NCBI GenBank assembly: GCA_029266635.1
Contig: JAQSWM010000001.1
Span: forward strand, 372,001-436,000
Length of the DNA: 64,000 nucleotides
Reading direction: 5' to 3'
Source: Sphingobacteriaceae bacterium
GTDB lineage: Bacteria > Bacteroidota > Bacteroidia > Sphingobacteriales > Sphingobacteriaceae
The position numbers were made by a program, and so were the translations under genes. Positions 39,539 to 43,443 of this stretch are shown here, piece after piece; the stretch's first letter is position 1; each line of letters begins with the position of its first letter. The notes beneath the pieces are model-generated. The model was given only the letters and a program-made list of their open reading frames with translations. It was not told where the DNA came from and made no database searches.

Positions 39539-40312
39539 CTAACTTTTTATCGATTTTACAAACGCAGCAATTTTCCCAAGATAATCGTCCCCGGTTCCCA
39601 GCATCTTCACAAACGCACTTCCTACAATCGCTCCCCGGGTATATTCAGAGGCTTTATCGAAGGTTTGCTTATCGGATATCCCAAAGCCGATCATGGTTGG
39701 ATTTTTAAGATTCATGTTTTTTATCCGCCCGAAATACTCTTCGGTAGAAGCAGAAACATCAAGGTTCTTGCCGGTGGTAGCGGAGGATGAAAGCAGGTAA
39801 ATAAAGCCATTGCTCAATCCGTCAATTTTCCGAATGCGCTCCTCAGAAGTTTGCGGCGTTACCAGAAAGATATTGCTCAGGTTGTACTTGTCGAAGCAAT
39901 TACAATACATTTCTTCGTACTCATACATCGGAAGATCGGGCACAATTACGCCATCAACTCCAGCCTCCGTCGCAGAGGCGCAAAATTTCTCTACGCCATA
40001 CTGAAGCACCGGATTAAAATATCCCATCAAAAGCACCGGAATAGAAACACGTTTGCGCAACTCTTTTAACTGTTCAAATAGAAGTTCCAAAGTCATTCCA
40101 TTTTTTAGCGCCACCTGCGAGCTTTCCTGGATCACTGGGCCATCGGCAACCGGATCTGAGTAGGGAAAACCAATCTCTATGAAATCAGCTCCGGACTTCT
40201 CTAATTCAGCGGCAATATCAACCGTGCTGTCGAGGTTCGGGTAACCTGCAGTGAAATAAACGGAGAGTATGGGTTCTTTTTTGGTATCGAAAAGAGTTTT
40301 GAGTCGGTTCAT
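39539..40312 (-). CDS. trpA: Tryptophan synthase alpha subunit
   Basis: 257 residues. It cleaves indole-3-glycerol phosphate to indole and glyceraldehyde 3-phosphate, and passes indole to TrpB. Visible family marks are YFTAGYPNLDSTVDI, the catalytic Glu/Asp region in GADFIEIGFPYSDPVADGPVIQ, GVIVPDLPMYEYEE, and the phosphate-binding GFGISDKQTFD and GAIVGSAFVKML. Length is normal. It is the last gene of the leftward trp cluster, separated from trpB by 104 bases that contain a heptamer repeat array, unlike the tight overlaps elsewhere in the operon. Confidence 0.97.
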   Translation of the reverse strand: MNRLKTLFDTKKEPILSVYFTAGYPNLDSTVDIAAELEKSGADFIEIGFPYSDPVADGPVIQESSQVALKNGMTLELLFEQLKELRKRVSIPVLLMGYFNPVLQYGVEKFCASATEAGVDGVIVPDLPMYEYEEMYCNCFDKYNLSNIFLVTPQTSEERIRKIDGLSNGFIYLLSSSATTGKNLDVSASTEEYFGRIKNMNLKNPTMIGFGISDKQTFDKASEYTRGAIVGSAFVKMLGTGDDYLGKIAAFVKSIKS

Positions 40313-40416: not shown

Positions 40417-41598
40417 TTACAAATTAAAATATTTCATATAAGTAGCTAAATCCTTGTCGCCGCGGCCTGAGAGGCAAACCACAACAGTTTCGTTGGCCTT
40501 AAAGGTCATTTTTTCGAGTTGCGCTAATGCGTGCGAACTTTCTATAGCCGGGATGATGCCCTCCAACTGAGCTAGAAGCCGGCCCGCTTGCATGGCTTCA
40601 TCATCCGTGATGCTTACGTATTCTGCACGCTTCACTTTGTACAGGTGGGCATGCTGCGGGCCGATGCCGGGATAATCCAATCCCGCAGAAATGGAATAAG
40701 GCTCAATCACCTGCCCGTCGGCTGTTTGCATCAGGATGGAGCGGCTGCCGTGCAGCACGCCTTCTTTCCCCAGCATGGTTGTAGCCGCCGACTCTCCGCT
40801 GTCCACGCCCTTGCCCGCAGCCTCTACAGCCACTAGTTTCGCGTTAGCATCATCCAGGAAATGATAGAACATTCCGGCTGCATTGCTTCCACCACCTACA
40901 CAGGCGAGGACATAATCAGGACTCTCGCTGCCGGTTTTTTCTTTAAGCTGCCAGCGTGTTTCCTCTGAAATTATAGACTGGAAGCGAGCAACCATATCCG
41001 GATACGGATGCGGCCCAACTACCGACCCGATGATATAGTGCGTGTCAACAGGATTATTGATCCAATCACGCATTGCTTCGTTAGTGGCATCCTTTAGAGT
41101 TTTGCTGCCCGAAGTAGCGGGAACAACTTTGGCTCCCATCATTTTCATGCGGGCCACGTTCGGTGCCTGACGCTCGATGTCAATTTCACCCATGTAAACC
41201 ACGCATTCAAGCCCTTTCAGTGCACAGACAGTTGCTGTTGCTACTCCATGCTGACCGGCACCGGTTTCGGCTATGATGCGTTTTTTGCCGAGGCGCTGCG
41301 CCACAAGGATCTGCCCGATGGTGTTATTGATCTTATGCGCACCGGTGTGGTTGAGGTCTTCGCGTTTGAGGTAAATGTTGGCACCGTACCGCTCTGAAAG
41401 CCTCTCAGCTAAAAATAAAGGCGATGGCCGTCCTACGTAATCCTTCAAAAGCTGCTGAAACTCTTCCTGAAAACCAGGCTCATGCATAATCTCCAGATAT
41501 TTAGAGCGTAACTCCTCCACGTTGGGATACAGCATTTCGGGAATGTAAGCTCCGCCGAAATCGCCATAGTACCCCTTTTCGTTTACATGATAATTCAT
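40417..41598 (-). CDS. trpB: Tryptophan synthase beta subunit
   Basis: 393 residues. This PLP enzyme condenses indole with serine to give tryptophan. Visible are [13 protein letters not shown], the PLP lysine (Lys89) in [11 protein letters not shown], the catalytic Glu in [11 protein letters not shown], and the phosphate-binding [12 protein letters not shown]. The start codon overlaps the trpF stop (ATGA), so translation is coupled. Length is typical for the TrpB1 class that pairs with TrpA. Confidence 0.98.
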
Positions 41599-42248
41599 AG
41601 TCTTTTTGTACTCTGCCCTACGGCAGGAAAATTCTTTATTTGTTCAAATGCCTTTGTAAGCTTTTCCACATCCTTTAGGGCAGGCAAAACTTCAAATTTG
41701 CTGTTCAGGTCGATGGCATACAGCCGCTCATCGTTAATCAAAGCTATTTTACTCAGATTATCCGGACCGATACCGCCGCTCAAAAAGTAAGGCTTGGAGT
41801 AGGGATAGTTTTTAAGTTCGTTCCAGTTAAACGATATGCCCGAACCGCCATATTCAGGAACTTTCGTATCGAAAAGAAAATAATCTGTGCACTCAAGGTA
41901 AGGCTCAGTCACATAAAAATAAAAGCCCTCATGCACACCAAAAGCTTTTATCACCTCAAGCCCGTCTTGCTGCAGCGTTTTGCAGAAAACCGGTGTTTCT
42001 TCGCCATGTAACTGTACGGCGTCCAACCCGTAAGCAATAACAGTGTCTTTGATTTCCTGATAAGAAGCATCCACAAAGACGCCTGTCTTTTTGATGTGTG
42101 GCGGTAGCTCGCGGAGGGCACTCATATCAGCCTTTCCAACATAACGCTTGGATTTCGGATAGAAAATGAATCCCAGGTAATCGGCACCCAAAGCAGCCAC
42201 CGCCTGGATGTTTTCTCCATCACGCATCCCGCACACTTTTATCTTCAT
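41595..42248 (-). CDS. trpF: Phosphoribosylanthranilate isomerase
   Basis: 217 residues from the ATG at 42248. A longer frame opens upstream inside trpD, but the family always starts near MKIKVCGM, and this ATG overlaps the trpD stop as ATGA. Marks include the catalytic Cys in [28 protein letters not shown], and the phosphate-binding [10 protein letters not shown] and AIDLNSKFE. TrpF isomerises N-(5-phosphoribosyl)anthranilate to the CdRP substrate of TrpC. Note that trpC itself is absent between trpD and trpF. Confidence 0.95.
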
Positions 42249-43231
42249 GCTACTAACTTTTTGAAGCTGCTCAAAGCTTTTTTGCTCATTAAGGATTCTT
42301 CTGCCTCGTAATAACAATCAGCAAAAGAGCTTTCCGGCTTGATTGTGTTGATGGCGATAGCGGCATTGCATAGCACCACGTTATTTTGCTCGCTGCTGCC
42401 TTCTGTATTCAACACAGTGCTGAATATTTCCGCCGATTCCTGCACCGTGCTGCCGCCTTCTATCTTTTCAGGAGAGATTTGTTCAAAACCTAGCTCACCA
42501 ATGCTGTGGATGTGTTCGCCTGTATTCGAGAAGGTTTTAAAATCGCAGGTAAGCGAAACTTCATCATACCCTTCCAAAGCATGTAAAATAGTGAATTTTT
42601 TGTCCGATTTCTGGTAGATATACGCAAAAAGGCGAGCAAGTTCCAGGCTGAATACTCCAACGAGCTGATTTTTCGGCTCCGCCGGATTTACCATCGGGCC
42701 CAGCATGTTAAAAAATGTCTTGACAGCAAGTTCTTTACGGATCGGTGCCACGTTTTTCATTGCCGGATGAAACAATGGTGCGTGCAAAAAGCATATTCCT
42801 GCGTCATCCAGAGTTCTTTTAAGCTCACCGGGATCGTTGGTGAATTTGTAGCCGAGGTATTCCATCACGTTAGAAGACCCGCAGCCCGACGACACACCGT
42901 AATTGCCGTGTTTTGCAACCTTGTATCCGGCACCAGCCACCACAAACGAAGCAAGAGTAGAAATATTAAAGGTATCCTTACCATCGCCGCCTGTTCCGCA
43001 AAGATCAACCAGCTCGTAACCATCAAGACCCGGATCTATGCAAAGTTCCAGCATTGCATCGCGGAAGCCCTCTAATTCGTCAATTGTAATATTCCGCATG
43101 CAGTAGACAGCCATAAAAGCTGCCATTTGCGAGTTATTGTATTTTCCTTGCGCCAGGTTAGACAGTATCTCCTTGGCTTCTGTCCTGCCAAAAGTTTTCT
43201 GCTCAAAAAGGCGATTTAAGATTTGTTTCAT
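42245..43231 (-). CDS. trpD: Anthranilate phosphoribosyltransferase
   Basis: 328 residues. It joins anthranilate and PRPP. Conserved blocks are visible: LCGTGGDGKDTFNISTLASF (PRPP binding), KHGNYGVSSGCGSSNVMEYL, FHPAMKNVAPIRKEL and FNMLGPMVNPAEPKNQLVGV. Length is slightly short but normal for this phylum. It is the first structural gene of the cluster; its leader (43232-43420) carries a Trp-rich leader peptide and a terminator. Confidence 0.97.
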   Translation of the reverse strand: MKQILNRLFEQKTFGRTEAKEILSNLAQGKYNNSQMAAFMAVYCMRNITIDELEGFRDAMLELCIDPGLDGYELVDLCGTGGDGKDTFNISTLASFVVAGAGYKVAKHGNYGVSSGCGSSNVMEYLGYKFTNDPGELKRTLDDAGICFLHAPLFHPAMKNVAPIRKELAVKTFFNMLGPMVNPAEPKNQLVGVFSLELARLFAYIYQKSDKKFTILHALEGYDEVSLTCDFKTFSNTGEHIHSIGELGFEQISPEKIEGGSTVQESAEIFSTVLNTEGSSEQNNVVLCNAAIAINTIKPESSFADCYYEAEESLMSKKALSSFKKLVA

Positions 43232-43286
43232 TTGTCATCATATTGGACTTCTTAAAGCATTTGAAGTCTCCGGTTTTGGCACAAAA

Positions 43287-43310
43287 AAGGGCTGCTTTGC
43301 GGCAACCCTT
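43287..43310 (-). terminator. Intrinsic terminator (attenuator) upstream of trpD
   Basis: On the leftward strand AAGGGTTGC pairs with GCAGCCCTT (nine pairs, one G-U) around a six-base loop CGCAAA, followed by four more T. It stops the transcript about 55 bases before the trpD ATG. On the rightward strand there is no T-run, so the direction is clear. Confidence 0.85.
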
Positions 43311-43356
43311 GTTATTTCTTATTAAGAACTCTATACAAATATGGCTTGCCGGGATT

Positions 43357-43401
43357 TTACAAGTGCCAGCGCCAGGCTTGATATAGGTTTTGAATGCTCA
43401 T
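43357..43401 (-). CDS. trpL: trp leader peptide (two Trp codons)
   Basis: A 14-codon frame, MSIQNLYQAWRWHL, runs from an ATG at 43401 to TAA at 43357-43359. Trp codons are 10 (43372-43374) and 12 (43366-43368), among 14 codons; Trp is the rarest residue in most proteins. It lies 47 bases before the terminator that precedes the trpD-F-B-A operon. When charged tRNA-Trp is scarce, a ribosome would stall at these codons and free segment 2 to pair with segment 3, letting transcription pass. The function is inferred by analogy with enterobacterial trpL. No Shine-Dalgarno is visible, which is usual in this phylum. Confidence 0.8.
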   Translation of the reverse strand: MSIQNLYQAWRWHL

Positions 43402-43412
43402 CTTTATACGAG

Positions 43413-43443
43413 CAAATATGATTAATCTTTTTTTGAACGCAAA
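43413..43443 (-). promoter_or_regulatory. Candidate promoter of the trp leader
   Basis: On the leftward strand TTTG (complement of 43440-43443) and CATATTTG (complement of 43413-43420) are 19 bases apart, matching the Bacteroidota -33/-7 layout with one mismatch in TAnnTTTG. The transcript would begin about 8 bases before the leader-peptide ATG. Confidence 0.45.

Follow-up and report, generated by a model that had tools for sequence, protein, structure and literature searches.

A predicted ribosome-mediated tryptophan attenuator upstream of trpD-F-B-A in a Sphingobacteriaceae bacterium

Introduction

Does the short open reading frame (ORF) in front of trpD in a Sphingobacteriaceae bacterium belong to a transcription attenuator of the enterobacterial type, and why would such a leader head an operon that starts at trpD? 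We examined these questions in a stretch of 64,000 nt (assembly GCA_029266635.1, contig JAQSWM010000001.1, positions 372,001-436,000), hereafter the window. Coordinates are those within the window, and "family" in all counts refers to Sphingobacteriaceae, to which the named relatives in the set belong. The analysis argues that a ribosome-mediated attenuator controls trpD-F-B-A in response to charged tRNA-Trp, a reading to which we assign a probability of about 0.93.

Results

The element lies on the minus strand. Its leader peptide gene, MSIQNLYQAWRWHL, occupies 43357-43401, with the ATG at 43401, 14 codons and a TAA at 43357. The regulatory codons are Trp10-Arg11-Trp12 (TGG CGC TGG, 43366-43374), with Trp codon 10 at 43374-43372 and Trp codon 12 at 43368-43366; most relatives have WWW at this site. 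A Bacteroidota promoter (consensus TAnnTTTG, PMC9723704) is predicted at 43413-43443, where TTTG (43443-43440) is separated by a 19-base spacer from CATATTTG (43420-43413), and its end is 11 bases from the leader ATG. The predicted start is a few bases 5' of this ATG, which would leave no room for a Shine-Dalgarno sequence.

Segment 1 (43366-43386), assigned from the MFE fold, comprises leader codons 6-12 and forms the 5' arm of the 1:2 hairpin. Segment 2 (43331-43352) contains a core, CGGCAAGCC (43351-43343), that pairs with segment 3 as well, and segment 3 (GGGTTGCCG, 43300-43308) is at once the 3' arm of the antiterminator and the 5' arm of the terminator. The intrinsic terminator, the 3:4 hairpin, has nine pairs and a T run (43283-43310); it reads AAGGGTTGC-CGCAAA-GCAGCCCTT from 43310 to 43287, after which the T run extends to 43283, 51 bases from the trpD start codon at 43231. 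The initial annotation of this DNA had described the 14-codon leader with both Trp codons, the nine-pair hairpin with its T run, exact complementarity between CGGCAA and TTGCCG, and an alternative pairing of the CGGCAA segment with the leader codons. All of these are present, the complementary bases at 43351-43346 and 43305-43300 and the alternative pairing as a long 1:2 hairpin. A short gap between the leader stop and the hairpin likewise exists, but we count 46 bases rather than the 47 given before.

Four genes follow on the same strand. The first, trpD (anthranilate phosphoribosyltransferase, 42245-43231), matches TIGR01245 at 300.6 bits, above the cut-off. It is followed by trpF (phosphoribosylanthranilate isomerase, 41595-42245), whose best match, NF002298, has an E value of 3.8e-51 and lies below the equivalog cut-off, and by trpB (tryptophan synthase beta, 40417-41598; TIGR00263, 588 bits) and trpA (tryptophan synthase alpha, 39539-40312; TIGR00262, 240 bits), both of which pass the NCBIfam cut-off. 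As in attenuators as a class, the short ORF carries regulatory codons for the product of its operon. Since the upstream neighbour gene (43526, plus strand) is divergent, trpD needs its own promoter. A search of the bacterium's own genome for the TrpR repressor found none.

The folding of the window leader was compared with that of shuffled sequences. Folding energies are -13.4 kcal/mol for the terminator (z -3.4), -13.8 kcal/mol for the antiterminator segment on its own (z -2.8) and -31.7 kcal/mol for the entire leader (z -2.2). The duplex between CGGCAA and TTGCCG is lengthened by CC:GG across one G.G mismatch, and the 2:3 pairing is better than that of shuffled spacers (p = 0.02). The MFE fold of the leader includes the terminator and the long 1:2 hairpin between segment 2 and the leader codons. 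The 1:2, 2:3 and 3:4 pairings are mutually exclusive, again as in the attenuator class. We simulated the ribosome by masking its footprint (15 nt upstream and 12 downstream) and folding the RNA once segment 3 had emerged. With the ribosome stalled at Trp12, the 2:3 antiterminator forms; with the ribosome at the stop codon, the CGGCAA:TTGCCG contact is lost; with no ribosome, 1:2 forms. Once the leader is complete, its MFE fold contains the terminator in all of these states; the choice must therefore be a kinetic one, as it is in E. coli.

The element is conserved throughout the family. Among the 89 family loci where the region upstream of trpD could be read, 85 have a leader with a Trp pair, a terminator and an antiterminator, as one would require of the attenuator that had been suggested here, and this conservation means that the window element is not a chance arrangement. 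The four exceptions are L037 and L041, where a model search places the element farther upstream, L090, where the leader is down to a single Trp, and L062, where no leader is shown upstream of trpD. In the two Pedobacter loci, L037 and L041, about 390 bases of repeat-like sequence stand between the attenuator and trpD. Three Trp codons are found in 75 of the 85 leaders and two in the other 10; a relative, L093, shares the WRW of the window. Codon 10 is the earliest Trp codon in 68 of the 85. Among 84 leaders, 59 have CATATTTG as their -7 box, and across all 84 this box (or CATCTTTG or AATATTTG) lies a median of 9 bases (5-18) 5' of the leader ATG. Outside the Trp block the peptide sequence is poorly conserved, and in the codons preceding that block the fraction of synonymous single-base differences is 0.35 versus 0.17 expected.

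Covariation of the stems was examined on a 51-sequence alignment with 500 shuffles. In the 3:4 stem, 96.1% of cells are paired and the covariation score was matched by 0 of 500 shuffles; the covariation of the relatives' 1:2 stem exceeds that of all 500. The initial annotation had looked to covariation in the 2:3 and 3:4 stems, and the outcome is divided: 3:4 covaries, and so does 1:2, but 2:3, although conserved (89.6% paired versus 26-45% in slid controls), has no excess of covariation over the shuffles in this alignment. Such an excess is not to be expected of a stem whose segment 3 has to match two partners and so has little freedom to change.

The distance between the Trp codons and segment 2 is nearly constant. 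From the last Trp codon to the segment 2 core it is 18 nt with a standard deviation of 0.8 and a range of 15-20 (n = 84); the window has the shortest, 15 nt, against a median of 18 in its relatives. The stop codon, in contrast, lies anywhere from about 19 nt past the core to 11 nt before it (standard deviation 9.2). In relatives with 24-residue leaders the ORF continues through segment 2; the leader ORFs of Mucilaginibacter, Pedobacter and the window end before or at segment 2. A constant distance is what sensing by a ribosome stalled on Trp codons would predict. The constancy is partly due to common descent, for which the freely moving stop codon serves as an internal control.

Why the leader heads trpD is explained by the family's trp operon having been split, with trpE carrying its own attenuator. 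Cytophagia and Flavobacteriia have an intact trpE-G-D-C-F-B-A. Fifty-two family loci have the order trpD-F-B-A and lack other trp genes within about 4.5 kb, and shorter loci agree. In the bacterium's own genome a different contig carries trpE-trpG, followed after a gap by trpC. This trpG-trpC gap of about 240 bp (L002:640-880), which may set trpC apart in transcription, holds sequence resembling a dispersed intergenic repeat. That the leader heads trpD was thus correctly described at the outset, but the "notable layout" that was seen in it is the norm in Sphingobacteriaceae.

The own trpE leader, VNNTTHTQNWWWQLKALRGNVC, is a second leader in this genome, with WWW and a terminator, and in a genome-wide search with the R1 model the trpD and trpE leaders are the two top hits. 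Masked folds of the trpE leader with the ribosome stalled or at the stop gave the same results as those of the trpD leader; without a ribosome, its decision-stage fold includes the 2:3 pairing. Nearly all of the family genomes checked have a leader with Trp codons 5' of trpE, and so do the named Cytophagia and Flavobacteriia whose operons are intact. The terminators of trpE differ in sequence (CCCGACGC type versus GGGTTGCC type), so that the architecture has been kept with different stems.

Discussion

We propose that the window element, which is real and conserved, is almost certainly a working Trp attenuator, judged from its sequence and that of its relatives, and that trpD-F-B-A would almost certainly be made only when tryptophan is short. 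From the anatomy we infer the following course of events. Transcription would begin a few bases 5' of the leader ATG, and a ribosome would start on the leader while RNA polymerase advances. When charged tRNA-Trp is scarce, the ribosome would stall on Trp10 or Trp12 and open the 1:2 hairpin, leaving segment 2, which lies just beyond, free for segment 3; the 2:3 pairing (CGGCAAgCC:GGgTTGCCG) would then block the terminator and the operon would be transcribed. When tryptophan is plentiful, the ribosome would reach the stop codon and cover the start of segment 2, so that segment 3 would pair with segment 4 and transcription would end before trpD. In the absence of a ribosome, 1:2 and the terminator would both form. 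The genome would hold two such switches, this one before trpD and the other before trpE-trpG. The enterobacterial logic that had been proposed for this leader is strongly supported by its conservation in 85 of 89 loci and by the covariation of 3:4 and 1:2. The response in the window may be weaker because its two Trp codons are split by Arg and its Trp-to-segment 2 distance is the shortest.

The same features of the window copy might instead mean that it is decaying, a lost Trp codon and a shifted stop having brought about near-constitutive termination or read-through. WRW in place of WWW, the 15-nt spacing, a stop earlier than in the closest relatives by TrpD and the failure of Rfam to detect this copy all point in this direction. 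Yet each of the three pairings is complete and strong, a relative (L093) shares WRW, and the E. coli trp attenuator works with two Trp codons; we consider decay improbable. It is more doubtful still that the terminated leader RNA or its peptide acts mainly in trans, as a small RNA or regulator, with attenuation in cis being secondary. An attenuator by design releases a short RNA, here of about 120 nt, and in S. meliloti, another bacterium with split trp operons, rnTrpL, an RNA derived from trpE, regulates trpDC in trans (PMC7143759). The conserved elements of the family, however, are exactly the parts of a cis switch, and the peptide residues other than Trp are poorly conserved. Moreover, both operons have cis attenuators of their own, which makes a link in trans unnecessary.

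A terminator and antiterminator pair by itself would suit any sensor, and the Trp codons could then be incidental to control by a T-box, a TRAP-like protein, a riboswitch or Rho. This we regard as highly improbable: Rfam detects neither a T-box nor a riboswitch at the site, the position and number of the Trp codons are conserved, and the distance from them to segment 2 varies far less than does that from the stop codon. Sensing by a ribosome on the Trp codons remains our preferred reading.

An element of this kind has already been described in the phylum. RF01692, "Bacteroid-trp" (Weinberg et al. 2010), is listed as cis-regulatory (PMC2864571), and in F. psychrophilum it has been likened to the Trp leader of E. 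coli (PMC6414381). In Rfam it is the "Bacteroidete tryptophan peptide leader RNA" and matches the trpE leaders of Winogradskyella and others of the same class. At the gathering threshold, a search of the entire window had no T-box, riboswitch or RF00513 match at the site, and neither had a search of the site itself at E values up to 1, in which the window copy has no match to RF01692 either; a weak match to STnc250 there (E 0.33) was rejected. Across 201 family genomes, RF01692 is found above the cut-off in nine and at E values up to 0.1 in 107. Three of four above-cut-off loci examined are immediately 5' of trpD, and the contig of the fourth is too short to tell. Two further genomes of the same class have RF01692 before a trpB-first operon, so there is precedent for a leader on an operon with a first gene other than trpE. 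The window has what the description of RF01692 names: a Trp-rich leader ORF, alternative terminator structures, trp genes downstream and a host in the Bacteroidota. It differs in that its operon is trpD-F-B-A, whereas the other matches examined are trpE-first or trpB-first. We conclude that the window copy is probably a divergent ortholog within RF01692. Our literature search turned up no previous account of a leader before trpD in Sphingobacteriaceae, and Naville and Gautheret (2010) do not mention Bacteroidetes.

The enterobacterial trp leader (trpL, RF00513) is similar in logic and proportions, in its segments 1-4 and in a terminator with a T run; that of E. coli encodes a 14-residue peptide with its first Trp at codon 10. 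The window leader differs in lacking an Rfam match, in its place before trpD instead of trpE in a genome where TrpR was not found, and in a predicted start so near the ATG that a Shine-Dalgarno sequence has no room. Sinorhizobium meliloti resembles this bacterium in its split trp genes and a Trp-codon attenuator on trpE (PMC7143759, PMC7298713), but there the released RNA controls trpDC in trans, whereas trpD here has an attenuator in cis.

These results extend a little-studied Rfam family to the whole of Sphingobacteriaceae, with a split pathway and a Trp sensor on both operons. Since RF01692 now misses the window copy, its model could be widened by a family-wide alignment. The remaining interest lies in two attenuators for one split pathway, in the Trp-to-segment 2 ruler and in near-leaderless initiation; ribosomes of Bacteroidota initiate mostly without Shine-Dalgarno pairing, and the element offers a clean system for asking about the coupling of ribosome and RNA polymerase in this phylum. 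Possibly, though at somewhat short of even odds, the Bacteroid-trp attenuator was duplicated when trpEGDCFBA was split in Sphingobacteriaceae, each half keeping a copy and both being nearly leaderless and free of Shine-Dalgarno sequences. If true, this would mean that transcription and translation are tightly coupled in Bacteroidota. With the R1 model, most Flavobacteriia-type trpE leaders score 45-52 bits, the family's trpE leaders 15-29 and the own trpE leader 34, scores that are confounded by base composition and are suggestive as to the descent of the trpD leader from an ancestral trpE leader.

Several minor observations were made along the way. Clues to attenuation of other amino-acid operons in F. 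psychrophilum have been reported (PMC9723704). In the own genome a His-rich short ORF, MPLVFTHHMHFDHHPCGDR, is located 5' of hisG (L155, about 1224-1283), near which no clear T-run terminator was seen by eye. Fulvivirga marina has two tandem WWW leaders 5' of trpE, each with a terminator (L067:2168-2413 / L142:2927-3172). In Xanthocytophaga flavus (JASJOS010000010.1, L147:547-620), a complete tRNA-Trp(CCA) gene stands between the terminator of a Trp attenuator and trpE, an exact pattern that is absent from ten other genomes of the class. This tRNA has a 75% identical match elsewhere in the same genome, and its gene would itself be under the control of a sensor of charged tRNA-Trp.
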